DNA from: a virus
Length of the DNA stretch: 27,816 nt
IMG/VR virus record: IMGVR_UViG_3300025483_001120
Coordinates: 1-27,816 of that record
Direction: 5' to 3' (one strand)
Shown here: piece by piece, positions 3,320 through 27,816 of the stretch
Position numbering within the stretch: position 1 is the first letter of the stretch
Layout of the letters: the number at the start of each line of letters is the position of its first letter
Made by a program: the position numbers and the translations under genes
The notes under the pieces: generated by a model
What the model saw: only the letters and a program-made list of their open reading frames with translations
What the model was told of the DNA's origin: nothing
The model's database searches: none

Positions 3320-3327
3320 TATTTATG
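3320..3327 (-). promoter_or_regulatory. Putative late promoter box upstream of gp8
   Basis: On the minus strand this reads CATAAATA, one mismatch from the T4 late -10 element TATAAATA recognised by gp55. It overlaps the TAA stop of the upstream 1,538-residue gene and lies about 31 bases before the gp8 ATG, which would leave room for a short leader. The spacer contains GAGGAA and then AGGA next to the ATG. A single eight-base match in AT-rich DNA is weak; position in the only gap before gp8 is the main support. Confidence 0.5.
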
Positions 3328-7945: not shown

Positions 7946-7949
7946 CCTC
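7946..7949 (-). promoter_or_regulatory. Shine-Dalgarno of the 1,538-residue gene, overlapping the upstream stop
   Basis: The minus strand reads TTGAGGATATAAATG. GAGG stands six bases before the ATG and shares bases with the TGA stop of the 407-residue gene. This supports the chosen start at 7939 and close translational linkage of the two genes. No separate promoter is needed here. Confidence 0.7.
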
Positions 7950-12200: not shown

Positions 12201-15200
12201 ACTAGGAATAGTAGAAGAAACTCCACTTGTTCCACCAGTTAATGTATCACCATCAGCAAACAATGTTCCTGTAATCACACCAATGTAAACTGCATTACCA
12301 ATATCCTCAAGAACAGTAGCACTTCCACCGCCACTAGATGTGATAGTCTCACCATTATTAAATCTGGTCGTATCAAGAACAACGTTGATATTACTAATAG
12401 TCATTGCCGTTGTAGGATTACCGCCAGAAATAGTTACCGTTGGTGGAGTTGATGGGTCATAACCAGTACCAGGATTGGTGATTGATACATTAGAAACTTC
12501 ACGGAGAGTGATGAAGTTTGCAGTTGCTGCAGTTGTAGTTACAGACTGTTCTGCACCATCTGCAAAAGCAATAGTGACAGTTCCTTGGAACTCTTTTGCA
12601 GTGTCAATTACAGAAACTCTCTTCAAACCATAATGGTCATCATTAGCACCGCTATCTTGTGCAGATTGGCGAACAATAAATGCAGTGTCAGGACCTTTCG
12701 CTCCTGTAGGTAATGCTACTGTAATAGCAGTCCAATCAGTAAAGTTTGTATAATTAGAACCACCACCAGCAGCACCACCGTAAATAAGTGTGCTAATCAA
12801 TACTTCAGTGTTGCTTCCTTGAACCTTATAGTAAAGAGCAAGGTCTTCACCAGCATCAGGTGATTCACCACCATTTGAACCATTACCTGCTGTAACATAA
12901 ACACGAACATTATCCATGTCAGTGGTATTACGACGGGTAGTGATTGCATATCTATCTCCAGATGCAGCACCAAACAGAATATATTTACCGACACCATCAA
13001 ATCCACCAGTGGTTCCAGTGCCAGTACCCGCATCTTGAATTTCGGAACCAGGACCAAATCCACTGCTAGTTTGCCACTCAATTGCAGTGTCTGCATCCCA
13101 AACAGAACCATCGTAAGTGACAGCAGAAACAGCACCACCAGAGATAGTAGCAGTTGCGCCATCGTCGCCAATATTAGCACCTGTTAAGGTTACATCGGGA
13201 CGAACTGTATATCCCGAACCACCACTGGCAACATTGATTGCAGAAATAGGACCTGCTGCTTCAAGAGTTGCAACAGCAGTTGCTGTTACGCCAGATGCAG
13301 GAGCAGTAAATGCGATTGTAGGTACAGACTGATAATCAGCTCCTGCAGTGAATTGCAGTTCACTAACTACACCTTCTCTTTGCAATGTAATTCTTCTAGA
13401 AGTAGTTTTATTAGAAGATGAAGTATCAGTGATGATAATATCGTGAGAGAGATTATCAACTAAACCATCAATGAAGGAATCATATTGCCAAGAATTAGCA
13501 CCAAACTGATTATTAATCGTGTTTGTGATTTCAGTTCTGTAGTAGTTTTTGTTGAACAGAAGAATCTGCGAGGCATATCTACCAGATAGACCAGCAGGAG
13601 ACAGAATTCTAATTGCAATGTCAATCAACTCACCATATTTTGCCATGACTGCTTGAACATCCGTTACGCTAAGAGCATCGCGATATGCAGTCTCGGTTGC
13701 ATATACTGCAGCATATTGACTTCCAGTAGTAACTGCACCTGTAGTGTATAGCAGATTCTGAATTGCACTAATACCCAAATCTCTCAGTTGTTCAATAGCA
13801 AAGATTGTTGCAGAAAGTTGCTCTTCAATGTGGTCCAATTGTAGATTAGCAGTCAGATAAAGTTCAATTGCTCTGATTGTACTGTTATTGCCGCCAGTTT
13901 GAAGGTCAGAAATAGCACTAGTAAGAATCAACTTCAAGTCTCTCTTACACTTCTCAAGACCAGCAGAACCATTAGGATAGTTAAATGCTCTATACGAAAC
14001 ATTATTCAGAACATATGTAAACTCTGCGTCCAACCTACCAGTTGCTTCAGATGCAATATAGTCACGATTAAAGTGAATTCTATCTGCAGCGATATTAAAG
14101 TCCTCACCTGTAGGTGCAATAGTATCATTCAGAAGAGTTATCAAGTTATCAATAGCAGATTGAACGTCTGCACACTGACCAGCATCATTAGTAATACCCC
14201 AATCACCAATGATGAGTTGATCGGTATTATCAGTAGTTAAATCGCCATTGATTGCCTGTTTTGCATAGAAACCAAGTCTTTCATGAGCGTATACTGACTG
14301 CCAAACTTGCAATCTAATATGCTGCAGTTCGTTATTGACTCCAACATAGAATCTAGAAGTAGATGCAACATTTTTATTACCACCAAGTTCAATATCTGCA
14401 GCAATATCATCTAAGATGAGACCAAGGTCTTGCTTACATCTTTCAGTACCATCAGTGCTTGTGCCATTAGCATTTCTAGGCATACTAGTAGCGAGGTCAG
14501 GATATCTTGTAAGCATATCAGATGCTGCTTTATCAACAATTGCTTGCCTATTAGCACGAATCAGAGTACTAGCATCTTTGAATCTATATTCAGAAGCAGC
14601 ACCGATTTTATTAGAGTACAGAATATCATTAGTATTATCAACAGAATCTGCAGTCAATGCGACTTTATAGAATCCATCAACGGTAGCACCTTTAAATTCG
14701 ACAGCAGGAGATACCTTTGTAACAGCACCGAGATGGTCAACAGGGGTAGAGAGATTTGCATTCGTGAGCGTATCAATCAGAATATCAAGGAGGTTGTCAG
14801 AGGTAGATGCAACATCAGCGCAATCGCCAGTAGTATAATTCAGCAACTTAACTGCGTTAGTACTAGAAGAGACGAAGGTATGAGCATATTGCCTATCAGT
14901 AGGAGATGCACCCACGTTTACTGTAATTGTAGTAGCAGTAGTAGCAGTAATTGCAAGAACTTTATTATAGAAAGGATCGTCTGTTCTTGGATATGCGTGC
15001 TGTGTAATGTTATTATCAGAGGAACAAGTAAATACAATACTTCCAGGAGAGATGCCGACTTGACTGCTGGTGGTCAAACTATGTGTACCAATAGTCAGAA
15101 CCATAACTCCAGTTGCAGAATCATAAGTTGCTGCAGTAGGAGTAAACTGACTGTATACAGTATTATTAGAGTCTGTAATTGTCGTGTCAGTAAACTGAGT

Positions 15201-18200
15201 AAGACCATGAGAACCAGATACAGTCCAAAGAACATTATTAATGATATATGGAATCATATCACCAACTTTATTATATGCCCAGATAGTTTCTGCAATTTCA
15301 GTTTCAATGTGATTTAATGTGATTGGTGAAACTGTTCTATCGACATATAATGCTGCTGCATCCCAAATGTGGTTGTTTGAACCATTACGAACATCTTCAA
15401 TAATTGCTTCAACAATATCTACAACATCATCTTCACAGTTAACATTACCGCCAGGAATTGTTAAACTAGGATACTGCTGAGTTAACAGATAGACTGTTTC
15501 CTTTGCAATGAAGTTTTTATTTTTCTCAAGAAGATTTGCAGCATCATAATATCTCTGAGAATTACCAGTAAATCCAGTAACTACCGCAGTATTACTATTT
15601 GCTCGGGTTGTTGCAAGAATTGCATCATTATTGAAGAACTCACCTTTGGTGAAATCTTGAGCACCAGACCAATCATCGGTGTAGGTTTGTGTATCAGTAC
15701 CATCAAAGTGCAGCAACAATTTAGCATTAATGTCTCCTTGGAACATACCGCTACGAACGGTAAATGCTGCCGTATATCTTGCAAGATTAGAAACTCTAAA
15801 GTCATCAATATGTCCAAGGAATCCATTAGCATCACTAACATCACTACCAATCTTAATAGTCTTAGTAGTCCCTAAATTGGTACTATTTGTAACACTACCA
15901 ACTTCAGTACCATCAACAAAGAGTTTCAAAGATGTGCCACTTCTGCTAACTGCAATATGATACCAGGTATCAATTACAATATTGTTACTAGAAGTGATAA
16001 TATCAGAACCACCAATGTTTACACGAACTTGACCCGTAGAAGCAACATAAAGTCTAATGGCACCACTATCACCACTATTATCTCTCATGTCTAGGATATG
16101 ATGATCTCCAGAAAGTGCGCTAGCACGAACCCAAACATCTAGGGTAAATGCTGCAGTACCAAATCCAAAATCATCAGAGGTGGCGATACTAACACCATCA
16201 CCAGTTGCAGGAACTGACAGGGAGGAAGACCCAAATTTCTTTTGAGCAGTATCAAGTTCTGCATTACCAATAAATGTTACCGCATGGTGATCGCCACCAT
16301 AGGACTTGGTTCTACCAATTTTTCCAAGATAAATGGTCTTTGCTGCTTGATTGAAACCAATAATCTCCGCTTTGGTGTCTCTTGTGCGAAGCACCTGACC
16401 TAGAGAGAAGAATCCCCCACCAACAGGATTAGTAAGACTCAATTTACGGATAGAAAGATCCTCAGATGTCGTGAAGTCGCCACTTTCGTTGCCAAATTCA
16501 ATCTTATAATTTCTGATAAATTCATCATCTTGGAATGTTCCTACAGAATTGTTATATGGAATTATGTAATTGTTGACAATTTCATTTTCAGGGAATTTGA
16601 CATTGAAATCTGTATTATTATCTGTGAAATCAACTACGGCAATTTGTGACTGAGAAATATCATCTAGGACAATATTTGGATATGTAATAGATGACAATCT
16701 ACTGAACAGAAGTCCAAAGAATGAAGAACCTTCAGAGATTTCAACTTCAGGAATAACCTCGTTAGTTGCTGCATCTCTATAAGGAGTTGTAGAAGTAATT
16801 CTAGCAACAACACGAGATTTAGCACCAACGATAATGTCGTCGAGAATGACATCATACAATCCAGGTTTGGACTGATATGTACCAACAGTTTTACTAAGGA
16901 TTAAATCATTAGTAACTGTAATGTTAGTTCCATATAAAGGAGTGAGTTCTTGAATTCCAGAAACTACCGTTCCTAGCTGCCCTCTAACTACAGTAAGTGT
17001 AGTAGAGTCTGTATTTTGAACAATATTAGACACCTGTACAATTTCACTACCAATCTGATAGTTTTGACCAACAGTAAATACACCCTCTACTCTAGATGGT
17101 GCATTAATAGTTGCATTATATCCAATAATCTCAAATCCTGTGGTAGAAGGACCAACTCCATAACGGAGTTTTGCAAGAGGAGTCTCAGAACCTTTCTGAA
17201 GGTTAATATCTTCAACAACAGCAGTGTCACCTTGCAAATCTGTTACACTTTCACCGAATACAAACAGATTGTTGCTAGGAACTACTTGAGAACTTTCAAA
17301 TACAGCAGAGAATCCTGTAGTATTTCCAAGAACAAGTTCATTTGTACTAAACGCTGTACCGATTGTAAAGAAACCTTCGATAAGTTCTTTCGATACATTA
17401 TTGATAGTAACACCAGTAACTTTAGTAACAGTAAACTTAGCACCCGACCCAGTACCACTAAGAACATTGCCAATATTAGGAACAATGCCACTAGTGCTAA
17501 TGAATGTTGCTTCTGTAATTGCAATCGGGTCAATTTGTACACTTACATACTTAACACTTGCAGGAGGAGAAGGTGGTTCAGAGAAGACAATAGAGTCACT
17601 TTGAATTGTAAATGAAACCTCAGGAGTTTGAACAACACCATTAAGGATAACCATCAACTGATTGGCATTAGCAATAACAGCATCACCATTATTAACAGTA
17701 ATTGAGAATTGGGTTTTAACACCATCAAACTGACTAGAAATATCATCTAATCTTTGTACAACAGATGTCAGAATGTTCTCCGAAGATGTTAATCTCTTTT
17801 GACGGAACTGAATAACTGTATTATCAAATTCAGAATATACAGGTTCAACCAAAGTGAAGTTCTGAATATTAGGAACGATTGCTTCATTAGCAAGTTCAAC
17901 TGACTTAGTTAATTCAAAATCGGTTTCTTTATTAGGAATAGTTGCATAGTCACTAATAGAAAGTTCACCAAAGATTTTGAATGATGCAGGGTGTACATTT
18001 CTGACAACAATGTCTTTCCACTCACTGATAGACACAGAAGACTTAACAGCATAGGAGAAGTCTTGATAATAATAAGAGTCTTGAATTTTTTGAATAATTT
18101 CCGAAGGTTTACCAACATCATCAATGAACTGACCTGTTGTCTTAGTGATAGAACCAACTTCAAGAACACCTCTAGCAATTTTCAACTTGGAAATAACACC

Positions 18201-21200
18201 AGAGGACTTGGAGATAACACCTGTGATTGTTTGACCTTCCGTAAATGTTCCAGTGTAATTGACAAGTTTGACAATTCTAGGACCAACTTGCCAACCAGAG
18301 TTTGTAGAAACATAACCCTGAGCAGTTGCATTTTCTAGAGTATCACCTTGATATACAAGTTCGCCCTCAAGGAAAGTTGAAGTAATTACGTTAGCAACTG
18401 CAGTACCACCAAAAGATGTAGTCAATACCTGTTGACGACCAGTACCAGTATTAGTAAACGTTAGAGCATCACCAAGAGTTGCATTCGCTGAAGTAATTGC
18501 AATTTTTAGTTGGTCATCTTCAAGAGAGTTTGCAGCACCAGAAATGGCATAATATGTATTACTTCCATTCAGTCTACCAATAGCACCAGCAGCGATTGGG
18601 AATTCTGCACCTTCTCCAGTATCTACAACGTTTAGTGTAATCTCAGCACCATTTTGAATTCCGTGAGGGAATGCAAACTGAAGAATACCAAGGTCTAAGT
18701 TCACAACATAGTTGAACGAAGATTTGAGTGTTACGACAGGTGTAGAAGAATACCCTGAACCAGGATCCTTTACCTCGATAGCAAACAATCTACCATTCTT
18801 GATAGTTGCTGCAGCAATAGCACCAGAACCGCCTCCTCCAGTGACAACAACCGTAGGTGCTTGTGTATAACCAGAACCAGGGTCGGTAACTGTAATGCTA
18901 TCCAAAATGCTAGTAGAAGTTAACTGAGCATTGATTGGGAAAGAGATTTCAGGACGCAGTGTGTAGTCATGAGAATAATCAAAACCGAAGTTATTATTTT
19001 TCAAGTTCTTAATCTTACCAATCTCTTCACCCAGAGTGAAAATAGAGGCACCAGAACCGAAAGATGGAATAACAACTACTAATTCTGCACCAGAACCAGT
19101 GAGTCCAGGTCCAAGGATACCGTTGATTGATTCAATATCAATTGTTGCTGTTGTATAACCTTTACCAGGAGAAGTAACAACAACTTTTTGAATTTGACCA
19201 GGGATATTACCTCCTTCTTCATCTGCACCATCAGAAACAGTAATGGAAACTAATCCACCTTCACCATCTCCAGAAATAGGCACACTATTATAAACGCCTA
19301 CTGCATATTCAGTACCAGGGTCATTGATTTGTACTCTTTCAATATTTCTAGTGGATTGAATACTTGAGACAATAGGAAGTTTTGTATAGAATCCACCAGG
19401 GTTAACAATACGAATATTAGAAATAGAACCAACTGCCTTCTTAGAACTTGTACTATAACTAGAATTGGCAATCGTTGCAGGACCTTCTGGTTGATTTATC
19501 AGTTCAAACTGGAAGATATCATCACCCCTAGTGATTGAACCACCAGATGTTGAGAATACTGTAAATGTGCCCACATAAGGAGAGAAAGTAACATCTAAGT
19601 AACTTTCAGGAATGACAGGAGAATCAGCACCCGTTCTAGATGGGTCAAAGTAATAAGAGATGTTCGTAATTACATCCCGAGTAACTTTCAGTTTTACTGT
19701 GGGTGTCGCAACACCCTGTCCAGTCACACCAGGTGTACCAATACGCTGAATAGAGTTGAATGAATATTCAAGTTTATACAGAGGGTCTTTAGAGAATGAA
19801 AGGTTGCCACCAAGCATAGATGAATGACTGAGGTCAAACAAATACTGGTGTCCATAATACATCTTAAGTGTAGGAGACTTAACAAAGACCTTTACTGAAC
19901 TAGCACTTGTCGCAGGTAATGTTAAGGCAGTTTGTGGCAGTTTATATGTAAATTCAACAGGACTAATGATTCGTTCTACAGGGAAAGAACCATCATACTC
20001 ATCATAAACAGTTCCACTAACTTCTTCAGAAGGATTACCGTCAATATACATTTGAGTATTAACACTCAAATAATGCAATGAACCACTAATTGCATATGCA
20101 GTGTCTGTATTAGAAACAGAAGTTACTTGAAGAATTTTTGTGAGATTAGCAATCAAACTGATTTTAAGAACACCAGTTAGATTAGTAATCTGAGCAGTAG
20201 AGTATGCTGCATTGAAACTAATATCACCTGAAGTAATATTTACAACAGAACCAACCGAGTAACTGGATGAACCACTAACCTCAACAATCTTAATGCTGTA
20301 ATCATCATCACTATATGGTTTAAATACACCATATTCGTCTAAATTGTTTGTACCACCAACATCTTCAGGTGCATTGTAATTTGCAAGATCGATATCAAAT
20401 GTTCCAGGTGTTGTATTAGTTACGTCTGCAAATGTTTGAGCGATTTCATTATTTGCACTATCAGTTGGAACAGGTCCGATAATGCCATAAGTGCTCTGCT
20501 CACTAAACTGTTCTGTACTAAGTTGATATTGATTTAAATCATTTGACCATGGATTACTGTTGATTGCAAGATATACTTTTTTAGTATTATAATCTACTCT
20601 AGTGATATATCCACTATTAACAAAAGAAGAACCATTTTTGAGAACTAATTTAGAACCAACCGTAAATATAAAATTCTGATTGATTGTGAGTTCTTGAACA
20701 TTATCAATTTTCAGAAGATTGAAAGTTTCAAAGTAATAACGATTTTTAACATTTGCCGTTACTTTTAACTTCTGAGAACCAGGAGAAGGAACTGTAGCAG
20801 TTCTTGTACTCCAGGTATCCTTAGTATATGTCAGAGTTTCTGTTCCCTCAGACATTGTAGTGGTCGCTTCGTTGAAATCGAGAGACTGCAATCCAACGTC
20901 CGCTAAAGTATATCCAACAGAATTCAATGTTAATGAATTACCTGTAACAGGTGTTACTGCAGTCCTAGTAAATCCATAATTTGTAGTGGTGTTTGCATTG
21001 TAACTACCAAGTCTGACTGCATCAGCATTCTTATCAACCTTTATACCAAATCCAAGATAATCGATATAATCATATCTAGCATGTTGCTGAGTGAACCATG
21101 CAGTATCAACAAATGTATGTGTAAGTCCTACTGCAGCAGCAACTGGTAGTACTGCAGGAGAACCAAAGTCACTAGGTGCAGTTACAGTAACTGCTCTATT

Positions 21201-24200
21201 ACGAATTCTGAGAGAATCGACATAGAATTGACCTTGATTATCTTCAATAAATCCACCAGAACTAGGGAATCCAGGGATATTGCCAATATGAATATCTTTA
21301 GACGCTAAATTAGTATCCGAAACATTGCCACTAATTTGTTCAATAGAGTTTACATATACTTTAAAATTGTTTCCAGATTTTCTAAGAGAAATTAGTTGCC
21401 AGGTATCATTCGCAAACAATCCAGTATTTGTTCCTGTTCCTGCAGATGATGCAGAAATAGCAGTTGAGTTATTAGCAACAACCAGTTCTACTCTACCATC
21501 ACTGGCAGTTCCATCAGTATTATAATATAACCATAGACCACCAGTGGTATCTGATGCGTCACCAATAGCAATAAGAGTTTGCTGGTCTGCACTCAACGTT
21601 TCTGCTTTACTATTAGCAGCATCTTTATAAATGAGGAAGTCGATAGTAAAGTCGGATGCAAGAGCAGTACCTAAAGAAGTTCCAGCAATTTTTGCTCCAC
21701 TATTTTCAAATGTTGTTGACTGACCTGTTTGGAATCCATAAATTTTCAGGATATTATCAGCATTTTCAATAGAACCGCTAAGACCAAGTGTAGTTAAAGT
21801 GTGATGACCAGTTTCATCAGTAAGATTTCCATCAAACTTAAAAATTGCCTCATTTCTATTCCAAGAAGTTTGTCCAAAGACATATGCGTCACCAGAGGTG
21901 TCTGTGCTTAAAGAATTGGCAGTAATTCCCTCAATAGTATTTTCAGTAAAGTCGGTAGTTGTATGATTTACAATATTACCCTTATAATCAATTTTGACCG
22001 TATTAATAGTTTTCTTAGAGGTTGTATTGTCAACTTTAGTATACGCAACATTCAACTGATTGAAAATATCAAGAGTAGTAGAAGGAACAAGATTGATATC
22101 TCTACTAACAGCATAGTTATAGTTCCAGACAGAAACGCCTTCGGAATCAAACTTGCCCACCCAGAACCTATCTCTAGTTGCATCGTCACTCTTCAACTGT
22201 AAAGTCGAAGATACATAAATTTCATTAAATTCGTCGATTGTGAAACTTGTATCTAAGAATGAATACGCATTATTAGTAATTTCCTTAATCCAATCAGTAG
22301 TAATAGAAGTAGTGCTAATAGTTGCCTTACCAATAGCAAAATTGATATCTCCAGCATTTTGAGACGTAGAGGTCTCCATCAAGAAATACAAGTTATTATT
22401 GTTATCATAAAGCAAATCAGTTACTTTCTCATTACCATTACTGGAAGCAATTTTTCTTTTTACAGTAAATGTTCCTGTAGAATCAAGAACTGCAATGAAA
22501 CCATCATAAGGTGCGGGAGAATTTGTATTTGTATATCCTGCAATAATTACTCTATTATTATCAGAACCAATAATCTTGCTGATATTATCGGAACGAGTTC
22601 CACCAGAAATACCAGCATATGCTTTCTGGAACGTTAATGTTGCACTAAGTCCATCATTTGCTTGAGTATACTTTGCAATAATAATATCTGGATTGTAAGA
22701 ATCAAGAATAGTACCATTTGGTTTGTTGATACCAGCTACCCATATAGTATCTCCATCAACATAAAGTTTTTGGAACTCTGCATAGTTTAATCCTGTTGTG
22801 AGTTCTAAGGTCTTCTCCCACTCTTTAACACCCGCTGCAGAAAGTTTAGCAACAAATGCAACGGTATTTCCAGATGCATCTAAGGTTTGACCACAAATGT
22901 AAGTTTCTTTTGCAGCATTGACAAAACTATCATTAATTTTTACATATTCTTGATTATCAACTTTGGAAACATAATAATCAGACTTTTTGAATACCTGTGG
23001 ATGTGAAAGAATAACTCTAGGATTCTTTGTATATCCATTACCAGAATTTAAAATATTAACTCGTTTGATTGCACCAACAGAGTCTACAACCGCCTCAAGT
23101 TCAGCATCTACACCATCACCGTCAATAACAATTTGTGGAGGAATTTCCTCACTATATCCACTACCAGTTTGAGCAATTACAATCTCTTCTACACCCTTAA
23201 ATTGTCTTACTGAATATTGCTTATTAGTAGTTTCAATATTTTCACTATAATCTACAAATACACTATCACCAACTGTCAGATTATGAGGTTGAGCAGTTTG
23301 TATTTTGCCGTAATTACTACCATTGCGATATTCATAATTGTAAGAACTAATGGTTTCACCTTTAATTCGTGATACTCGTGCAGATGCACCAGAACCACCA
23401 GTTCCAGAATTGTCAAAGATTAATTTATCATCAACCTGATAACTTACACCAGAATTTTCAACTACAAAATCTGTAATAGATGCATTCTCAAATCTACTAA
23501 TAGTTTCAACTTCGATATCAACTTTTGACTCAGTTTTTACTTTAGGGAAGTAATCGAAGATTTGAAGTGGAGGTTCTTCTAAAATTTGATCTGGGTCATC
23601 AATTTCATCTTGACTGATAATACCATCTTTATTTTCATCTTCAACATCAAATAATAGTAATGTTCCATCTTCTAAAGTCAATGAGTTTGTAGATGCATTA
23701 GGAATTCTTTCAACATCAATATCAACATTCTCATAAGGATCGCGATAACGAACAACCCCAGTTGGAATATTTTGCTGAGTTGCAGACTCATTTAAATTCC
23801 AAGAATCAACAACTGAGTTGAAATCAGAACCAAGAATATATGGGAATACAGAGTTACCAAACTCAGTATTATCAATGGTTACAAAATAACAATATCTACC
23901 ATTAGGATATTCTGGTGTTTTACAAAAACGACCATTATACTGGTCTAAATCACCAAGACCAAAGACATATTCATAGTCTTCTACATATGTGCCTGCAGCA
24001 TCATCAGTCAATGCAGGACCTTCAACTCTACTTGGATTAGGATTTGTAGTAGCATCAAGAATCAAATTAGTCTTTAATCTGTATGAAGTAGCAACTCTAC
24101 TGAGTGTAGAACTTTGATTAGTTGGATCACTATATCCATATGGTCCATAGATGGGATTACCATCAAATGCCCAACCGATAATTGGTGAGTGAGTTAATTG

Positions 24201-27200
24201 TGTTTCTCTTTCTCTAATTTGGTTACTTGTATTGGTGAACAAGTTATCACCAAGAATGAATCTAAGTCTCTGAGGATTAGCAATGTGTGCGTATTCGCCA
24301 CCATATTGATTATTATATCCAGCAAAAACGGCACCTTGAGAACTATCAAGTGTTGAAGATTCTTGAAGATTATACGTCCACTGGAATACATTTGCAGTAA
24401 AAGATGCACCTTGTCCAATGGAAGACAAACTAATAACAGTCGTTCCTTGAACATAATTAATACCTCTATTCAAAATTTCAATGCTAGTAACTTTACCAGC
24501 ATTTTCGCCCTCAGTATCAATGACAGCTCTTGCCTTTGCACCAAAACCTACACCTTGAATTTGAACTTCAGGTGCAGTAGTATATCCAGAACCACCAGAA
24601 ATAATTGCAATAGAAATAATTCTACCATTATTGACAATTGCTTGAGCAACAGCACCTTGACCCGAACTAATAGTTACATTTGGGCTAGATGTATATGAAG
24701 TACCACCAGAAAGAAGGTTTACAGATTTGATAGGACCTCTAACAGATGCCGTACCAGTTGCACCCGTACCACTACCACCAACAATAGTGATTTGCGGTTG
24801 AGATGTATATCCAGTACCACCATCAGTGATAAGAATATTTGATACACTACCCTTAGTAATAATAGCAGTTGCAGACGCTCCAGAACCGCCTCCACCAACG
24901 ATAGAGACAAGAGGGGATGATGTATACCCACTACCGCCAGTTTCAACTTCAATATTGATTACAGACCCATTAACGACGACTTCGGCAGTTGCACCCGTAC
25001 CAGTACTAGAAGATAATGTAAGTTTAGGAGGATTTGCAGAATCATAAAGGATACCTGCATTGTCGATACCAATGCTAGTGATAGGACCAAAAGTCTTAGA
25101 AGTTGTAGATTTATAGGACCAAACAGAGACACCGTTAACCCAAGTTCCAATAGGACCAGGAGTAATAACATTCTTGGTAGAGATTGTTGTTGGTATTTGA
25201 GGAAATCTATTCAGTTTTCTTTGGTTACCAGGCAGTAATGCAGAACCAGGGAAAGGTCCGACATTATAGTTTGGAATACCTGTAGATGCAACATAGACAA
25301 AACTATCGTTAAAGAAAGAGTTTTGAATATTTGTGGTATATACACTGATACTGTCATTAATAGACGAATCAGTAGATTTGCCTTTATTCAAGTTAACAGA
25401 AACAAGAATATTGCCCTGAGGTGCTACAAGTGCAGTCTGAGGAAGTTGATATTGAAAAACAGTGTCGCTATCTCTAGAGGTTACCGCAAACGTACCGTTA
25501 TAAAGAATTGGGTTAGCACCATAAATCGTAACTTCATCACCGACCAAAAGTCCATGAGGATTATTACAAGTTACCGTAGCAAATTGGTCATTAACACCAC
25601 CAAACACAATATCCGATACTTGAATAAGTTTTTTAACATTATACAACCAAGTATTCAGTAAAGGTTGTTCTCCAGTGCCGCCAAGTTTTGCAACAGTTAA
25701 TTTATCTCCAGGAAGATAGTATGAACCCGTATCAGTCAAATTGGTTTGCTGTGCATCAACAATACCAACAATATTCATAGTAACTTCTTGGGATGTTCCC
25801 TTATTAAGAGTTACTCCAAAGTTAGATACAACCTCAGTAGCAGAATCCCAAGTATAAGGATTAGTTCCAACACTACCAGGGGAAAGACGAGTACACTCAA
25901 TAAACTGGTTTAGAGACTTTTCCTTATAACGAATTACTTCTGCCCCGCCGAGGACAAATTCACCGTTCCTTTCTGGCCAACCAATTGTTGAGTCAACAGT
26001 AATAATACTGTCAGTACCATTAAGAGGTTCTGCAAGTTTAGTTTTATAGGGAACAATAAAACTACCTTGAATAGTCTCTTCAGACAAGACTAATTCATAA
26101 ATGGTAGTATTAGCAGTATTAATGGCAATATAGTTCTCTACTAGAGCACTAGCATCTCTAACATTAGTGTCAGCAATATCAGCATCTTGCTGAATCAAAG
26201 CATCTTGAATATTTCTTGGGTCACCAGATTCTAACGTAGCACGAAGAATTGTATTAATTGACCAAGTTGCTGCAGATGGTTTAATAATTTGGTCTCTAGG
26301 ATAAGAAATATCTACAGTCTCACCATAAAGAAGTTTGAATAAGTATGCAATACTAAAGGTAGTACCTTTAGTCATATAAAAATCTTTAATGTTTTTGATT
26401 GCTGTTCTTACATCAATCTTCTTATAATCAATCTCAGGAACATCTGGCAAAAACTGTTCAGTGTACTTATCAAGAATACGCTTTACAAATACAGCGTCTA
26501 AACACTTTACAACAGTTCCAGAAGTAGCACTAGATGCCGTTGTATTACGACTGAAAATCGCATTTCCATTTTCAGTGTAACCAGTGATGCCACTAGCAGC
26601 TCTAGCACAATTTAACAGTTGTGCCTTTGTATAATCTCTACCCGATTGTAAAATTTTAAATCCAGTAATCTCATTAACACCAATATCGACCGAAGCGGAC
26701 GCTTGAGGAGGTGCTTGAATTACAACTTTTGGGGGATTAGTTTCACTATATCCCGTTCCAAAATTAGTAATATTAATATCAGTGATTCTACCATTAAAAA
26801 TAGATGCTGTTGCTTTTGCTCCACTACCACCAATGTAAGCACCAGTATCACTAGTTCTATCATCAATAATGTATACAGATGGAATATCAGAATATCCCGA
26901 ACCCCCATCAAGAATTTCAATTCCTGTAACCCTACCATCAGTATCAACAGTAGTATCTAAAACTTGAGCGCCAATAGGTTCGATAATTTTAACTCTAGGA
27001 GTACTAGTATACCCCTGACCAGGATTCAAAATACTAATAGATGCAACTTCACCAGATGCGTTTAAAACTGCCTGAAGATTTGCTTTGATTGAATTTGCAC
27101 CTGTAGGCTCATCAACATATACTTCTGGAGGAGTCGAATATCCAATACCACCAAAAGTAACAGCAATGGTGCCACTAATTGAACCATTGGATACAGTAAT

Positions 27201-27816
27201 ATCACCAAGAGTAGCACCACCTGGTTGTTGGAAAGTAACTCTAGGAACATCAGTATATCCACTACCAGAATCTTCAAGAGTTAACTCAGTAACAGTTCCA
27301 CCAGAAACCTTTGCCGTAATTTTGGCTGTAGTAGAACCTGCAGAAGTTGGAGATACTACCTTAACAATAGGAGGATTAGTATCACTATATCCCACACCAC
27401 CACTAATCAACTGAAGATTTTTGACACCATTGATTAATGCGGTGGCAGCACCACCAGAACCTATCTCACTATTGATTCTAATTTGGGGAGGAAACTCAAA
27501 CCTATATCCACTCCCGCTATTATCAATAGCAATGTTCTCTAGACTTCCAATATTAGAAACTCTAGCGAATGCAGAAGCATTATTACCATAAGATGGAATA
27601 GATGCTTCAATATGAAACATATCTAACTTTCTGCCCTTAATAGGAACAAAAGTTCTGAAGATGATTATGTTGCCATCGAAAATATAATCTACCTTAGGTA
27701 TCAGTAAGTTACCATCATAATATACAATAACATATTCATCAACTTCAGGAACGAATGCTGTACCACCGACAGTAATTTTAAATTCAGAGGCACCATCACC
27801 AAAACTACTGGAGATA
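9210..27816 (-). CDS. Giant gp7-like baseplate/tail adhesin (5' end beyond window, at least 6,201 residues)
   Basis: The frame stays open from the TAA at 9210-9212 to the right edge. The ATG at 27620 is internal: the 65 codons before it are open and encode a normal module (FKITVGGTAFVPEVDEYVI...YYDGNLLIPKVDYIFDG). Residue numbers here count from that ATG. Order: LNGV-like module (upstream of 1); GSGY block (1-335); gp7-like core with DFYMTKGTTFSIAYLFKLLY at 413-432; GSGY block (844-1077) inside a YHYH domain (to about 1268); EF-hand-like loop (1328-1339); propeller-like region (1549-1930); LamG (1923-2151); GSGY block (2734-2967); LNGV module (about 3278-3366); LamG (3776-3984); Cys-helical repeats (4020-4740); reelin-like (4846-5005); GWYRV jelly roll (5173-5385); two C-terminal LNGV modules and a last GSGY unit. 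T4 gp7 is 1,032 residues. Likely a baseplate wedge protein fused to receptor-binding or fibre modules. The homology is by eye; the role is inferred from position. Confidence 0.85.
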   Translation of the reverse strand, partial: ISSSFGDGASEFKITVGGTAFVPEVDEYVIVYYDGNLLIPKVDYIFDGNIIIFRTFVPIKGRKLDMFHIEASIPSYGNNASAFARVSNIGSLENIAIDNSGSGYRFEFPPQIRINSEIGSGGAATALINGVKNLQLISGGVGYSDTNPPIVKVVSPTSAGSTTAKITAKVSGGTVTELTLEDSGSGYTDVPRVTFQQPGGATLGDITVSNGSISGTIAVTFGGIGYSTPPEVYVDEPTGANSIKANLQAVLNASGEVASISILNPGQGYTSTPRVKIIEPIGAQVLDTTVDTDGRVTGIEILDGGSGYSDIPSVYIIDDRTSDTGAYIGGSGAKATASIFNGRITDINITNFGTGYSETNPPKVVIQAPPQASASVDIGVNEITGFKILQSGRDYTKAQLLNCARAASGITGYTENGNAIFSRNTTASSATSGTVVKCLDAVFVKRILDKYTEQFLPDVPEIDYKKIDVRTAIKNIKDFYMTKGTTFSIAYLFKLLYGETVDISYPRDQIIKPSAATWSINTILRATLESGDPRNIQDALIQQDADIADTNVRDASALVENYIAINTANTTIYELVLSEETIQGSFIVPYKTKLAEPLNGTDSIITVDSTIGWPERNGEFVLGGAEVIRYKEKSLNQFIECTRLSPGSVGTNPYTWDSATEVVSNFGVTLNKGTSQEVTMNIVGIVDAQQTNLTDTGSYYLPGDKLTVAKLGGTGEQPLLNTWLYNVKKLIQVSDIVFGGVNDQFATVTCNNPHGLLVGDEVTIYGANPILYNGTFAVTSRDSDTVFQYQLPQTALVAPQGNILVSVNLNKGKSTDSSINDSISVYTTNIQNSFFNDSFVYVASTGIPNYNVGPFPGSALLPGNQRKLNRFPQIPTTISTKNVITPGPIGTWVNGVSVWSYKSTTSKTFGPITSIGIDNAGILYDSANPPKLTLSSSTGTGATAEVVVNGSVINIEVETGGSGYTSSPLVSIVGGGGSGASATAIITKGSVSNILITDGGTGYTSQPQITIVGGSGTGATGTASVRGPIKSVNLLSGGTSYTSSPNVTISSGQGAVAQAIVNNGRIISIAIISGGSGYTTAPEVQIQGVGFGAKARAVIDTEGENAGKVTSIEILNRGINYVQGTTVISLSSIGQGASFTANVFQWTYNLQESSTLDSSQGAVFAGYNNQYGGEYAHIANPQRLRFILGDNLFTNTSNQIRERETQLTHSPIIGWAFDGNPIYGPYGYSDPTNQSSTLSRVATSYRLKTNLILDATTNPNPSRVEGPALTDDAAGTYVEDYEYVFGLGDLDQYNGRFCKTPEYPNGRYCYFVTIDNTEFGNSVFPYILGSDFNSVVDSWNLNESATQQNIPTGVVRYRDPYENVDIDVERIPNASTNSLTLEDGTLLLFDVEDENKDGIISQDEIDDPDQILEEPPLQIFDYFPKVKTESKVDIEVETISRFENASITDFVVENSGVSYQVDDKLIFDNSGTGGSGASARVSRIKGETISSYNYEYRNGSNYGKIQTAQPHNLTVGDSVFVDYSENIETTNKQYSVRQFKGVEEIVIAQTGSGYSEEIPPQIVIDGDGVDAELEAVVDSVGAIKRVNILNSGNGYTKNPRVILSHPQVFKKSDYYVSKVDNQEYVKINDSFVNAAKETYICGQTLDASGNTVAFVAKLSAAGVKEWEKTLELTTGLNYAEFQKLYVDGDTIWVAGINKPNGTILDSYNPDIIIAKYTQANDGLSATLTFQKAYAGISGGTRSDNISKIIGSDNNRVIIAGYTNTNSPAPYDGFIAVLDSTGTFTVKRKIASSNGNEKVTDLLYDNNNNLYFLMETSTSQNAGDINFAIGKATISTTSITTDWIKEITNNAYSFLDTSFTIDEFNEIYVSSTLQLKSDDATRDRFWVGKFDSEGVSVWNYNYAVSRDINLVPSTTLDIFNQLNVAYTKVDNTTSKKTINTVKIDYKGNIVNHTTTDFTENTIEGITANSLSTDTSGDAYVFGQTSWNRNEAIFKFDGNLTDETGHHTLTTLGLSGSIENADNILKIYGFQTGQSTTFENSGAKIAGTSLGTALASDFTIDFLIYKDAANSKAETLSADQQTLIAIGDASDTTGGLWLYYNTDGTASDGRVELVVANNSTAISASSAGTGTNTGLFANDTWQLISLRKSGNNFKVYVNSIEQISGNVSDTNLASKDIHIGNIPGFPSSGGFIEDNQGQFYVDSLRIRNRAVTVTAPSDFGSPAVLPVAAAVGLTHTFVDTAWFTQQHARYDYIDYLGFGIKVDKNADAVRLGSYNANTTTNYGFTRTAVTPVTGNSLTLNSVGYTLADVGLQSLDFNEATTTMSEGTETLTYTKDTWSTRTATVPSPGSQKLKVTANVKNRYYFETFNLLKIDNVQELTINQNFIFTVGSKLVLKNGSSFVNSGYITRVDYNTKKVYLAINSNPWSNDLNQYQLSTEQFSEQSTYGIIGPVPTDSANNEIAQTFADVTNTTPGTFDIDLANYNAPEDVGGTNNLDEYGVFKPYSDDDYSIKIVEVSGSSSYSVGSVVNITSGDISFNAAYSTAQITNLTGVLKISLIANLTKILQVTSVSNTDTAYAISGSLHYLSVNTQMYIDGNPSEEVSGTVYDEYDGSFPVERIISPVEFTYKLPQTALTLPATSASSVKVFVKSPTLKMYYGHQYLFDLSHSSMLGGNLSFSKDPLYKLEYSFNSIQRIGTPGVTGQGVATPTVKLKVTRDVITNISYYFDPSRTGADSPVIPESYLDVTFSPYVGTFTVFSTSGGSITRGDDIFQFELINQPEGPATIANSSYSTSSKKAVGSISNIRIVNPGGFYTKLPIVSSIQSTRNIERVQINDPGTEYAVGVYNSVPISGDGEGGLVSITVSDGADEEGGNIPGQIQKVVVTSPGKGYTTATIDIESINGILGPGLTGSGAELVVVIPSFGSGASIFTLGEEIGKIKNLKNNNFGFDYSHDYTLRPEISFPINAQLTSTSILDSITVTDPGSGYTQAPTVVVTGGGGSGAIAAATIKNGRLFAIEVKDPGSGYSSTPVVTLKSSFNYVVNLDLGILQFAFPHGIQNGAEITLNVVDTGEGAEFPIAAGAIGRLNGSNTYYAISGAANSLEDDQLKIAITSANATLGDALTFTNTGTGRQQVLTTSFGGTAVANVITSTFLEGELVYQGDTLENATAQGYVSTNSGWQVGPRIVKLVNYTGTFTEGQTITGVISKSSGVISKLKIARGVLEVGSITKTTGQFIDDVGKPSEIIQKIQDSYYYQDFSYAVKSSVSISEWKDIVVRNVHPASFKIFGELSISDYATIPNKETDFELTKSVELANEAIVPNIQNFTLVEPVYSEFDNTVIQFRQKRLTSSENILTSVVQRLDDISSQFDGVKTQFSITVNNGDAVIANANQLMVILNGVVQTPEVSFTIQSDSIVFSEPPSPPASVKYVSVQIDPIAITEATFISTSGIVPNIGNVLSGTGSGAKFTVTKVTGVTINNVSKELIEGFFTIGTAFSTNELVLGNTTGFSAVFESSQVVPSNNLFVFGESVTDLQGDTAVVEDINLQKGSETPLAKLRYGVGPSTTGFEIIGYNATINAPSRVEGVFTVGQNYQIGSEIVQVSNIVQNTDSTTLTVVRGQLGTVVSGIQELTPLYGTNITVTNDLILSKTVGTYQSKPGLYDVILDDIIVGAKSRVVARITSTTPYRDAATNEVIPEVEISEGSSFFGLLFSRLSSITYPNIVLDDISQSQIAVVDFTDNNTDFNVKFPENEIVNNYIIPYNNSVGTFQDDEFIRNYKIEFGNESGDFTTSEDLSIRKLSLTNPVGGGFFSLGQVLRTRDTKAEIIGFNQAAKTIYLGKIGRTKSYGGDHHAVTFIGNAELDTAQKKFGSSSLSVPATGDGVSIATSDDFGFGTAAFTLDVWVRASALSGDHHILDMRDNSGDSGAIRLYVASTGQVRVNIGGSDIITSSNNIVIDTWYHIAVSRSGTSLKLFVDGTEVGSVTNSTNLGTTKTIKIGSDVSDANGFLGHIDDFRVSNLARYTAAFTVRSGMFQGDINAKLLLHFDGTDTQTYTDDWSGAQDFTKGEFFNNDAILATTRANSNTAVVTGFTGNSQRYYDAANLLEKNKNFIAKETVYLLTQQYPSLTIPGGNVNCEDDVVDIVEAIIEDVRNGSNNHIWDAAALYVDRTVSPITLNHIETEIAETIWAYNKVGDMIPYIINNVLWTVSGSHGLTQFTDTTITDSNNTVYSQFTPTAATYDSATGVMVLTIGTHSLTTSSQVGISPGSIVFTCSSDNNITQHAYPRTDDPFYNKVLAITATTATTITVNVGASPTDRQYAHTFVSSSTNAVKLLNYTTGDCADVASTSDNLLDILIDTLTNANLSTPVDHLGAVTKVSPAVEFKGATVDGFYKVALTADSVDNTNDILYSNKIGAASEYRFKDASTLIRANRQAIVDKAASDMLTRYPDLATSMPRNANGTSTDGTERCKQDLGLILDDIAADIELGGNKNVASTSRFYVGVNNELQHIRLQVWQSVYAHERLGFYAKQAINGDLTTDNTDQLIIGDWGITNDAGQCADVQSAIDNLITLLNDTIAPTGEDFNIAADRIHFNRDYIASEATGRLDAEFTYVLNNVSYRAFNYPNGSAGLEKCKRDLKLILTSAISDLQTGGNNSTIRAIELYLTANLQLDHIEEQLSATIFAIEQLRDLGISAIQNLLYTTGAVTTGSQYAAVYATETAYRDALSVTDVQAVMAKYGELIDIAIRILSPAGLSGRYASQILLFNKNYYRTEITNTINNQFGANSWQYDSFIDGLVDNLSHDIIITDTSSSNKTTSRRITLQREGVVSELQFTAGADYQSVPTIAFTAPASGVTATAVATLEAAGPISAINVASGGSGYTVRPDVTLTGANIGDDGATATISGGAVSAVTYDGSVWDADTAIEWQTSSGFGPGSEIQDAGTGTGTTGGFDGVGKYILFGAASGDRYAITTRRNTTDMDNVRVYVTAGNGSNGGESPDAGEDLALYYKVQGSNTEVLISTLIYGGAAGGGSNYTNFTDWTAITVALPTGAKGPDTAFIVRQSAQDSGANDDHYGLKRVSVIDTAKEFQGTVTIAFADGAEQSVTTTAATANFITLREVSNVSITNPGTGYDPSTPPTVTISGGNPTTAMTISNINVVLDTTRFNNGETITSSGGGSATVLEDIGNAVYIGVITGTLFADGDTLTGGTSGVSSTIPSSGVGSTFDYYTNVGNVLTFNDARLIQSPIAAEFSSTNFWTNPEAFAINWTTASATFTNNAILSPDNTLTAEKITADASGTVNHDIDRVYTLNAFETFDSGSVKFDTTNETFDTGSIAEDSTQTFTTSLFVKSAEYTDIRFSAILDDGQAGPQSLFFDVDLTNGSTGSIFQPEAGLVSYTTGVVPFGNGWYRVFATLTFSFGFSSLTTRLNIKNASAINYPGDGSSGIYVWGAKFNKGAFDAYTSVGGERFFSNSEYNIKNFALNLFEDYVESALNGSLASPTANGSYAFDNATWRAGYSTDEFLTVVRRNVDFYKKQLDNSTYYADITVNSGISVPTKEFGITYIPTGVGGGLSTSDYFYGEYSDTNAELETSFMNEAKIAKVYNRFRIDGDITDGPFTMGEIVQKDGDSSVTGVVYGFHEDENYKYLDVEITGGTWAIADGIIGAANTTTATLSALESRLHIIRLKGTFTPSIPFLGFTSSTTATPTSFIRNETAVLDNTGGKLTVDTSTLTGTFEKTAVVYSSNTELYIEVQKYNGLDVQIGDKIISGGYTRLGVANATGFILGHFIYLLNSGGGRDTSKKAIISGVDTVNNYLYVSPIDGDFSITDNVGDFGPAGGGANTIATGTIATKLVQTGQAYGLIGNITSVGVNKRLYLRDVIGIWNENDSVIAGKDYKSVIIDKVISRARVKRSFRGFDGTQTIFDLSISNGTTYLPDPAGHMLIFINGILQPPGAGNAYNAFSNKIQFAEAPDAGSTFTGFYIGKLRQLDDISFEFDSLRQSFNLKRNDVFYSLTLTEGVQSSVIRPENNIIVSLNGVIQEPGVGFEIVGSRIIFSEIPRVGSSFAAFSYVGSEADVDASEVVPPIEPGDFIDIQGETEDREVAVIESSNSLITFDYLGSVFGQNAKATPILKSGFIEKVSITAPGSGYTSRPVVRVDSISGFDAQIRAIIGINVVEIGNVGSAYKETAIVVESEVPDDWTAPNLADYGEEYVDYQ
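9640..10150 (-). repeat. Two C-terminal LNGV beta modules of the giant protein
   Basis: Two adjacent copies of a roughly 80-residue module: FRGFDGTQTIFDLS...MLIFINGILQPPG...NKIQFAEAPDAGSTF and LDDISFEFDSLRQSFNL...NIIVSLNGVIQEPG...RIIFSEIPRVGSSF. Each has a FDG/FDS entry strand, an I-x-NGVxQxP turn and an I-x-FxExP exit strand. Further copies lie at 17525-17790 and at the right edge. Confidence 0.65.
11480..12110 (-). other. GWYRV-type jelly-roll (carbohydrate-binding-like) domain
   Basis: Residues about 5173-5385 of the giant protein. Landmarks in order: FWTNPEAFAINWTTAS, LFVKSAEYTDIRFSA, GNGWYRVFATL and GIYVWGAKFNKGAFDAYTSV. The TNP...W opening, VKsxeYT strand, GWYRV strand and WGAxxxxGxfxxYxxV ending are the usual landmarks of a jelly-roll module frequent in phage fibre and spike proteins, where sugar binding is suspected. 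Confidence 0.6.
12600..13085 (-). other. Reelin-like jelly-roll domain of the giant protein
   Basis: Residues about 4846-5005. It contains GTGTGTTGGFDGVGKYILFG, AGNGSNGGESPDAGEDLALY and NDDHYGLKRVSVID. These align in the same order with the copy in the 1,538-residue protein (NGTNGGEAPDFGEGL, DHWGIRNITV), which suggests a duplication shared between neighbouring genes. Confidence 0.5.
13400..15560 (-). repeat. Cys-containing alpha-helical repeat array in the giant protein
   Basis: Three full copies and one partial copy of a helical unit, at about residues 4023-4137, 4343-4460, 4506-4632 and 4678-4740. Shared positions: an N(K/R)xxI/Y helix, then Cys-x2-Asp (CEDDVVDIVEAIIEDV, CKQDLGLILDDIAADI, CKRDLKLILTSAISDL), then a G(G/S)N turn, then L-x-HI in the next helix. 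Two CADV segments (near 14812-14825 and 14161-14183) lie between units. It stands out as helical within an otherwise beta-rich protein. Confidence 0.7.
15670..16300 (-). other. LamG/concanavalin A-like domain 2 of the giant protein
   Basis: Residues about 3776-3984. It shows the usual order of a LamG_3-type sandwich: FGSSSLSVPATGDGVSIA, FTLDVWVRASAL, WYHIAVSRSGTSLKLFVDGT and GFLGHIDDFRVSNLARYT. These domains commonly bind glycans or surface proteins, in line with a host-attachment role. Confidence 0.75.
17525..17790 (-). repeat. Internal LNGV beta module of the giant protein
   Basis: It reads QRLDDISSQFDGVKTQFSIT, then LMVILNGVVQTPEVSFTI, then SIVFSEPPSPPASV. The opening QxLDDISxxFD matches the second C-terminal copy (RQLDDISFEFDSLRQSFNL), so whole modules rather than only the turn are repeated. 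Confidence 0.65.
18720..19440 (-). repeat. GSGY repeat block with module shared with gp8
   Basis: Residues about 2734-2967 of the giant protein. It contains IRIVNPGGFYTKLP, VQINDPGTEYAVG, VVVTSPGKGYTTATIDIES, ITVTDPGSGYTQAPTVVV and IEVKDPGSGYSSTPVVTL. The part around VPISGDGEGG and GPGLTGSGAELVVVIPSF matches gp8 residues 220-300 (VPINGDGTGG and GTGTGAQVDVIIPPP). Confidence 0.75.
21170..21860 (-). other. LamG/concanavalin A-like domain 1 of the giant protein
   Basis: Residues about 1923-2151. Landmarks are AIFKFDGNLTDETGHHTL, LASDFTIDFLIYKD, GGLWLYYNTDG, WQLISLRKSGNNFKVYVNS and FYVDSLRIRNRAV. The W-x-L...R.G...VYVN and xxDxLRIxNRA steps match the LamG_3 pattern of the second domain at 15670-16300. 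Confidence 0.65.
21850..22975 (-). other. Beta-propeller-like region of the giant protein
   Basis: Residues about 1549-1930. Successive stretches read ETYICGQTLDASGNTVAFVA, IWVAGINKPNG, VIIAGYTNTNSPAPYDGFIA, LYFLMETSTSQ, IYVSSTLQLKS and AYVFGQTSWNRN, spaced roughly 50-60 residues and usually followed by an AxL/KxD strand. This recalls the SBBP/delta-60 type of propeller blade with about six blades. The call rests on periodicity alone. Confidence 0.4.
23604..23639 (-). other. EF-hand-like calcium loop in the giant protein
   Basis: Residues 1328-1339 read DENKDGIISQDE. This fits the canonical 12-residue loop: D1, N3, D5, G6, I8, S9, E12. It follows FDVE and precedes an acidic DDPDQILEEPP stretch. 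A single loop, as in dockerin-like or extracellular calcium sites, not a paired EF-hand. Confidence 0.55.
23815..24200 (-). other. YHYH-domain core of the giant protein
   Basis: Residues about 1142-1268: HSPIIGWAFDGNPIYGPYGY, then ATSYRLK, GDLDQYNGRF, TPEYPNGRYCYFVT and VFPYILGSDF. The first part of the domain (PIGTWVNGVSVW, near 25115-25165) is separated from it by a GSGY block, so the domain is split by an insertion. The related domain in the 1,538-residue protein is split at other points. YHYH is named from memory; its biochemical role is unknown. Confidence 0.65.
24390..25095 (-). repeat. GSGY repeat block B in the giant protein
   Basis: Residues about 844-1077 hold about six units: IGIDNAGILYDSANPPKL, IEVETGGSGYTSSPLVSI, ILITDGGTGYTSQPQITI, VNLLSGGTSYTSSPNVTI, IAIISGGSGYTTAPEVQI and IEILNRGINYVQGTTV. 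Most units are 32-45 residues long and contain a G-x-GAxAxAxV strand followed by a turn and the next I-x-I-x-xxGSGY. Confidence 0.8.
26200..26510 (-). other. gp7-like core segment of the giant protein
   Basis: Residues about 370-475. VKRILDKYTEQFLPDVPEID leads to IKNIKDFYMTKGTTFSIAYL, then FKLLYGETVDISYPRDQIIK. T4 gp7 has, from memory, YDFYSTKGIEASYKFLFKVL followed by YNEEVEIEI, the same DFYxTKGxxxSxxxLFKxLYxExVxI arrangement after a helical run-up. Gene position upstream of gp8 agrees. Confidence 0.6.
26640..27600 (-). repeat. GSGY repeat block A in the giant protein
   Basis: Residues about 10-335 hold seven units: IAIDNSGSGYRFEFPP, LQLISGGVGYSDTNPP, LTLEDSGSGYTDVPRV, IAVTFGGIGYSTPPEV, ISILNPGQGYTSTPRV, IEILDGGSGYSDIPSV and INITNFGTGYSETNPP. 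The spacing is about 35-50 residues. They form a beta-rich, probably elongated rod between the N-terminal region and the gp7-like core. Confidence 0.8.
27621..27816 (-). other. Open continuation of the giant gene to the window edge
   Basis: All 65 codons read from 27815 down to 27621 in the frame of the giant gene are sense codons. They encode FKITVGGTAFVPEVDEYVI and YYDGNLLIPKVDYIFDGNII, another LNGV-like module (NGV replaced by DGN). No Shine-Dalgarno stands before 27620. Hence this is coding sequence, not a leader, and the gene start is outside the window. Confidence 0.85.

Follow-up and report, generated by a model that had tools for sequence, protein, structure and literature searches.

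The T4 baseplate protein gp7 is a wedge protein that joins two gp6 chains and is present in six copies per virion. According to one passage of PMC7029224, pelagi- and cyanomyophages are devoid of T4 gp7, for which VrlC appears to substitute, and the pertinent text of PMC3037559 places gp7 among the non-cyanophage core genes, with proteins so divergent as to split into several clusters. The gp7 annotation already stands on proteins of P-HM1, S-SSM7, B23, S-SZBM1 and other relatives of the sequence treated here; their gp7 identity is not new. That sequence, called the window in what follows, is the 27,816-nucleotide (nt) IMG/VR record IMGVR_UViG_3300025483_001120, only a fragment of that virus genome, and it carries a giant open reading frame (ORF) on the minus strand. 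We are confident in reading this ORF as a cyanophage gp7 whose scaffold is kept in separated blocks, with large modules inserted or appended and with outer parts that would be able to touch the host. Its identity as gp7 is very likely; the location and binding role of the added modules are what we infer.

The giant frame meets no stop codon up to the window edge, and phrog_701, a family of virion proteins with 6136 positions, aligns to it from family position 221. The protein therefore lacks about 220 residues at its N-terminus, which makes the ATG at 27620 internal. A previous sequence-only reading had noted a DFYMTKG motif resembling the C-terminal region of T4 gp7. The motif was located at nt 26384-26364, minus strand, with YLFKLLYGETVDI at 26345-26307, minus strand, the two spanning amino acids (aa) 478-503 of the 6201-aa frame (nt 26307-26384, minus strand). 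The resemblance goes beyond chance in profile searches, but it falls on T4 residues 730-758 and not on the extreme C-terminus. The T4 gp7 family, phrog_964, matches the giant at aa 476-504 (E-value, E, 2.8e-4).

Three further profiles were used: A4, from 16 short and mid-length forms; A6, from 43 sequences (the window, 36 giant-type and six mid-form IMG/VR sequences); and AB2, from 84 IMG/VR short- or mid-form loci, whose phages are not all distinct, as some contigs recur. A4 and A6 were searched against all 177,635 distinct PDB sequences. A4 gave two significant matches there, both gp7 (5.6e-10 and 3.7e-8; next 0.11), and with A6, built mostly from giants, only gp7 was significant (1.5e-6 and 2.9e-6; next 0.14). 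AB2 matches the window at E 3.8e-24 and five of five T4-type gp7 proteins at 6.6e-12 to 5.6e-9, while the best of 120 shuffled decoys reached 0.15; hhalign of AB2 against the T4-type alignment returned a probability of 98.8.

Short relatives (482-586 aa) carry three conserved blocks, A, B and C. Block B of the window contains the motif and block C lies far downstream (Table 1); block A belongs to the cut-off part and was seen only in relatives. Block C was first spotted in short-form alignments. Its profile, built from IMG/VR short forms, matches the window at E 5.6e-19 (best shuffle 0.18) and all five T4-type gp7 proteins at 1.2e-5 to 8.7e-4, at residues 853-891 (959 in K566). Of 26 proteins searched for blocks, 24 had all three reported, always in the order A, B, C; this count includes five T4-type proteins whose block A matches are noise. 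The gp7 of the window is giant and its core discontinuous: the sequence-only reading had the core as a single piece at residues 335-600, and the blocks are instead spread over about 3500 residues. Roughly 650, 2720 and 2900 residues lie between A and B, between B and C, and after C in the giant (655, 2722 and 2914 in ACG-2014b), against 47, 261 and 45 in ACP17; in T4 the last two spacings are 107 and 142. From these spacings the core of the giants is one scaffold, broken at two ports and lengthened at its end. T4 uses another port, with about 640 residues before the helical domain (Pfam 643-689). T4 domain VI (PF21456) had no Pfam match in the window pieces at E 0.001.

The fold of the motif region was examined with AlphaFold models of window aa 440-660 and of an IMG/VR short form (L090). 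Foldseek, searching 350,542 PDB chains, placed 5iv5_BJ, 9f4a_A0 and 5hx2_A at ranks 1 to 3 with both models (best E 9.4e-4 and 3.3e-5); 5hx2_A is named gp7, and the other two were judged to be gp7 by their entry, length and residue range. With the window model, VIA-align 2 likewise ranked these three chains 1 to 3 (Z-scores, Z, 8.1, 8.0 and 6.9; best other row 6.3), with 77-78 residues aligned at a root-mean-square deviation (rmsd) of 2.3-3.0 and a sequence identity of 9-12%. Model residues 79-173 superpose on T4 764-841, which is gp7 domain V (Pfam 766-861), so that the best structural match of the segment directly after block B is to gp7, with no unrelated fold on top. With the short-form model, gp18 sheath chains took ranks 1 to 3 through one domain (Z 9.4, rmsd 2.4, 75 residues) and gp7 chains ranks 4 to 6 (Z 8.8, 8.4 and 6.9, rmsd 21-23 over 208-229 residues). 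We credit the domain V match despite its modest Z because both the expected protein and the expected segment were matched.

A tblastn search with 266 aa around the motif matched 505 of 50,697 phage records, mostly Synechococcus and Prochlorococcus phages, and also phages of Stenotrophomonas, Sinorhizobium, Acidovorax, Caulobacter and Pseudomonas; the window core is 86% identical to that of ACG-2014b. The protein in the slot after gp6 ranges widely in length: ACP17 482 aa, YB07 503, pf16 523, Desulfovibrio phage 7757 586, Cr30 767, Melnitz-2 896, phiN3 1006, T4 1032, K566 1164, B23 2845, S-SSM7 3007, S-WAM2 3446, S-BM3 3849, S-SCSM1 4120, P-HM1 4446, S-SM1 6180, S-RIM8 6395, ACG-2014b 6422, Syn19 6483, S-SZBM1 6619 and P-SSM7 7124. 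The six close complete relatives of the window giant measure 6180-7124 aa. The 586-aa gp7 of Desulfovibrio phage 7757 (L074), an unannotated record for which ORFs were computed, is recognised by both T4-type and short-form profiles and is, in profile terms, a bridge between the two groups, its sequence having itself been in the alignment of the first short-form profile.

The end of gp6 lies at most 400 nt upstream in 80 of the 81 short-form loci with at least 600 nt of room (84 loci in total). Of the loci that leave 1000 nt or more on the other side, 67 in number, 63 have the start of gp8 within 1500 nt. All 12 annotated cyanophage giants examined have gp6 or a wedge gene immediately upstream, which the sequence-only reading had named as support; in the window itself the upstream gene falls outside. 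The gene was also said to sit upstream of gp8. It does occupy the gp7 slot, but gp8 is the third gene downstream, with the gp9-like and phrog_708 genes between, and is followed by a partial DUF4815 gene.

A separate gp7 homologue elsewhere would have spoken against the assignment, and no convincing second copy was found in any of the 22 records searched with A4. Each of 17 records (the window and 16 from phages) gave a match, with a single ORF in each bar one, the extra match being a second ORF of the Desulfovibrio phage at E 0.007, and the profile also matched one ORF in each of five further records: HTVC008M (1016 aa), P-SSM2 (5195), S-PM2 (3048), syn9 (6076) and S-SM1 (6180). Second genes labelled ‘gp7/baseplate wedge initiator’ occur in S-SSM7 (L083, 27742-36744), B23 (L087, 26235-29480) and S-SZBM1 (L260, 260-2107). 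The B23 gene was rejected as a second gp7, having no core block, and in S-SSM7 A4 matches only in the first gp7-annotated gene; the label of the second genes was therefore probably carried over from shared modules.

On these profile matches, the published statement of gp7 loss in pelagi- and cyanomyophages, as worded in the cited passage of PMC7029224, is contradicted for HTVC008M, P-SSM2, S-PM2, syn9 and S-SM1. Products of this gene are also on record from virions. The S-SM1 giant carries the label T4-GC969, which the relevant part of PMC3037559 gives as one of 41 multi-peptide proteins in S-SM1 virions. The slot gene of S-SZBM1 is S-SZBM1_208, whose row in Table 1 of PMC9146016 reads baseplate wedge initiator, 724.20, 6619, 71 and 13.5% (the row came without column heads, and we took the figures as kDa, residues, peptides and coverage). 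Table 3 of PMC10665884 lists S-CREM2 ORF122, ‘baseplate wedge protein, intermediate’, with 91 unique peptides, and tblastn with the gp7 core matched that site.

Several results weigh against the reading as gp7 with outer, host-touching parts. A profile of five T4-type gp7 sequences gives the window only weak scores (E 3.4e-4 for the block B domain and 0.47 for block C), and with filters off the reversed sequence of K566, a training member, outscored the window (1.9e-6 against 8.6e-6). As this profile is too weak and was beaten by a decoy, the argument was shifted to the short-form profiles with shuffled decoys and the whole-PDB searches. Detection by phrog_964 reached 13 of 17 records, missing pf16, S-WAM2, S-BM3 and B23, and extended to one of 14 control genomes. 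Block A was rejected as independent evidence of T4 kinship, since on its own it scores E 1 or worse in T4-type gp7. The AlphaFold models are of low to middling confidence (mean predicted local distance difference test, pLDDT, 59.7 for the window and 69.2 for the short form), superposition of whole chains is poor (rmsd 14-22 in Foldseek), and the tool itself warns that a Z near 8, taken alone, may reflect a common arrangement, which makes the value borderline. T4 gp7 itself is not known to be an adhesin. Set against these points are homology, block order, synteny, the single copy in relatives and the domain V fold, and on that evidence the earlier proposal of a gp7 enlarged about sixfold, in the gp7 slot, stands.

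In the arrangement we propose, the scaffold (about 430 residues in the shortest forms) survives as block A with N-terminal helices, block B with domain V, and block C, and large modules have entered at two sites, one from A to B and one from domain V to C, with more added behind C. By analogy with T4 the scaffold would lie in the inner baseplate against gp6 and gp53, while GxGY, YHYH, Laminin_G-type lectin, phycobiliprotein-like and jelly-roll modules would reach outward and serve as rods and binding heads. With six copies per virion, each of about 690 kDa (ACG-2014b), about 4 MDa would be in a position to touch the host.

The repeat profile found 22 GxGY beta modules in the window giant, some partial, within 9348-27566; it found 18-23 in the six close relatives, 4-15 in six other cyanophage gp7 proteins and none in five T4-type gp7 proteins. 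Against the PDB this profile matched a phage tailspike at 1.2e-5 and gp18 sheath proteins at 0.012 and weaker, which is suggestive only. RecA concatemers matched by the insert between A and B in a single-sequence PDB search (1e-4; per-domain E about 200) were rejected because the score sums over repeats.

Host recognition by the added modules is plausible from the predicted folds (Laminin_G_3 and YHYH), module gain and loss, and lower conservation. It is also possible, though we think it doubtful, that around a gp7 core the added modules are structural bulk, that is, rods, spacers and stabilisers of a large baseplate with no part in host recognition. The added mass is for the most part conserved, since 39 of 42 windows, each of 150 residues, are at least 60% identical to ACG-2014b; the GxGY domain of the short-form model (not of the window's) matches domain I of the T4 sheath protein gp18, a structural protein; and related segments (phrog_701 and phrog_460) occur in gp8 and phrog_708. 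Yet the giant has modules of kinds typical of binding heads, namely a ConA/Laminin_G fold, YHYH and a jelly-roll module subject to indels. Identity in the Laminin_G window (3901-4050) is 43-51% for five relatives and 27% for S-SZBM1, whereas the core window 451-600 is 73-89% identical (51% in S-SZBM1). Residues 4801-5100 align with at most 5% gap in ACG-2014b and S-RIM8, but the gap share is 81-100% in S-SZBM1 and 90-100% in S-SM1, Syn19 and P-SSM7; the Reelin-like module sits in a stretch missing from several relatives. In the alignment of seven giants the windows around the gp7 core are the most conserved, a pattern that would fit a fixed core with exchangeable heads.

That the ORF is instead a tail fibre or adhesin with a borrowed short gp7 helical motif, the true gp7 role lying with VrlC or another protein, is hardly probable at all: a passage of PMC7029224 does propose VrlC as the substitute and segments of the giant are common to the fibre-like families phrog_5342 and phrog_4527, but the window holds two ordered gp7 blocks and domain V, with a third block in relatives, rather than one motif, the slot lies between gp6 and gp8, the gp7 core was found in five of five further marine genomes, HTVC008M included, and a VrlC/VriC gene coexists with the ACP17 short form and with P-HM1 gp7 and so is not their replacement.

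Table 1. Features of the window; residues are numbered in the 6201-aa frame of the giant ORF
Feature	Coordinates (nt)	Strand	Residues (aa)	Basis or remark
gp8 baseplate wedge	1756..3288	-		PF09215 E 6.8e-19, phrog_438
Baseplate wedge subunit with YHYH domain	3323..7939	-		phrog_708
gp9-like baseplate wedge/tail fibre connector	7948..9171	-		phrog_677, PF07880
Giant gp7 (baseplate wedge protein) ORF, very likely	9210..27815	-	6201 visible	5′ end cut
Seven GxGY beta modules, insert between blocks A and B	26676..27566	-	84-380	repeat profile
gp7 core block B (DFYMTKG...YLFKLLYGE)	26298..26399	-	473-506	profile searches
gp7 domain V-like fold, directly after block B	25980..26264	-	518-612	VIA-align 2
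Six GxGY beta modules	24402..25106	-	904-1138	repeat profile
YHYH domain	23865..24380	-	1146-1317	PF14240 E 1.3e-32
Two GxGY beta modules	22968..23213	-	1535-1616	repeat profile
Two GxGY beta modules before block C	18690..18929	-	2963-3042	repeat profile
gp7 core block C (QDSYYYQDFSYAVKS...VHPASFKIFGEL)	17955..18134	-	3228-3287	domain E 1.5e-18
Laminin_G_3 (ConA-like lectin fold)	15777..16202	-	3872-4013	PF13385 E 7.4e-24
Phycobiliprotein-like module 1	15258..15554	-	4088-4186	PF00502 alone 17.5 bits, below cut-off 22.2
Phycobiliprotein-like module 2	14271..14585	-	4411-4515	PF00502 E 1.2e-9 (piece), best stretch 4414-4470
Phycobiliprotein-like module 3	13779..14099	-	4573-4679	module profile
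Reelin_subrepeat-B-like module	12609..12989	-	4943-5069	PF21471 E 3.6e-6, 27.2 bits, cut-off 27

The most interesting lead from the giant is its phycobiliprotein-like modules. PF00502 matched a window piece at E 1.2e-9, or 1.8e-5 with different piece boundaries, and the window module region passes the family cut-off (E 1.8e-9, 38.2 bits against 22.2). The cut-off was passed in four of seven regions tried (not in S-WAM2, P-HM1 or S-BM3). Single modules are mostly too weak for PF00502, seven of 14 matching at E up to 1 (best 2e-4). A module profile was built from 14 modules picked out of 31 matches, all bearing Cys and coming from six phages, of which the window is one. Against the PDB it matched 137 sequences at E up to 1 (best 2.8e-5); among the 60 matches listed, 58 are named as phycobiliproteins or as parts of the phycobilisome, and the other two as ‘bacterial fluorescent protein’ chains. 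In a single-sequence search eight PDB sequences matched at E up to 1, each of them a phycobiliprotein or smURFP and individually weak (0.07-0.27).

Ten of the gp7 proteins scanned with the profile carry one to seven copies of the module; the scan found none in gp7 of S-SSM7, S-SCSM1 or B23. Copies are not confined to gp7: S-PM2 has 13 matches in two other large ORFs outside it, and S-WAM2 has 19 across gp7 and two other ORFs. Modules occur in 14 of 26 records; once P-HM2 and P-SSP7 are added, they are present in the window and in 14 of the 17 cyanophage records that are complete, while none of ten non-cyanophage phages had a match to the profile. With tblastn the 593-aa module region of the window matched 381 of 50,697 records, named Synechococcus (290), Cyanophage (61), Prochlorococcus (22) and Marine (8), that is, only cyanophages and unassigned marine viruses.

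At the aligned site, which we take to be the phycobiliprotein chromophore site, Cys and Asp (C-x-x-D) are kept in 50 of 53 distinct modules, 29 with Arg between them as C-x-R-D; these modules, each covering at least 70 profile columns, come from 26 proteins and 30 loci and are not independent, and the Cys-bearing training modules favour the finding of Cys-bearing modules. A CpeT-type lyase gene is present in 11 of 28 records, all of them module-bearing; among complete cyanophages this is 11 of 14 with modules versus none of three without (Fisher 0.029, uncorrected for kinship or host). For bilin reductase (PF05996) the distribution does not track that of the modules: it occurs in seven of 28 records, among them the module-less P-SSM2 and S-SSM7.

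Adsorption of S-PM2 is light-dependent, and P-SSM2, whose genome is without the modules, adsorbs in the dark. In the pertinent part of PMC7112961, dark adsorption of P-HM2 is near zero by model fit and P-SSP7 is without that effect; we find six module matches in P-HM2 and none in P-SSP7. It is conceivable, if rather unlikely, that these tandem tail domains of cyanophage gp7 and other large tail proteins derive from host phycobiliproteins and still bind bilin, making a pigmented, light-sensing tail. Attachment of the bilin would be by phage or host lyases such as CpeT, and a tail of this kind would explain the light-dependent adsorption of some cyanomyoviruses. In the literature searched on phycobilisomes or phycobiliproteins in connection with cyanophages or phages, no report of such modules in virion proteins was found. 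The modules open the unexplained light dependence of cyanophage adsorption to direct test.

Among the proteins read, which span 482 to 7124 aa, the same wedge scaffold accommodates thousands of inserted residues, always at fixed ports. Its known counterparts compare with the window as follows. With T4 gp7 (5IV5, 5HX2; PF21428, PF21427, PF21456) the giant has in common blocks B and C in the same order and domain V after B, and its relatives share with T4 the upstream gp6 and the single copy per genome. T4 gp7 differs in its size (1032 aa against more than 6201), in lacking a YHYH or Laminin_G domain, and in placing its extra domains ahead of the helical block, a position at which marine and short forms begin with block A. 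The short gp7 proteins of Acidovorax ACP17, Stenotrophomonas YB07 and Pseudomonas pf16 (482-523 aa), all annotated as hypothetical proteins, share blocks A, B and C but, unlike the giant, are without large inserts; ACP17 and YB07 have two GxGY modules and pf16 none. With the phycobiliproteins (PF00502; phycocyanin, phycoerythrin, allophycocyanin) about 60 residues align, including the chromophore-site Cys and Asp, whereas the module of the giant is about 100 aa long, stands in tandem inside a virion protein, and does not align in its last third. The closest counterparts are the annotated cyanophage gp7 or ‘virion structural protein’ sequences of P-HM1, S-SSM7, S-SZBM1 and S-SM1 (phrog_701; 3007-7124 aa in the annotated set), which are the same gene in the same slot with no essential difference, the window adding a further sequence of the phrog_701 type.

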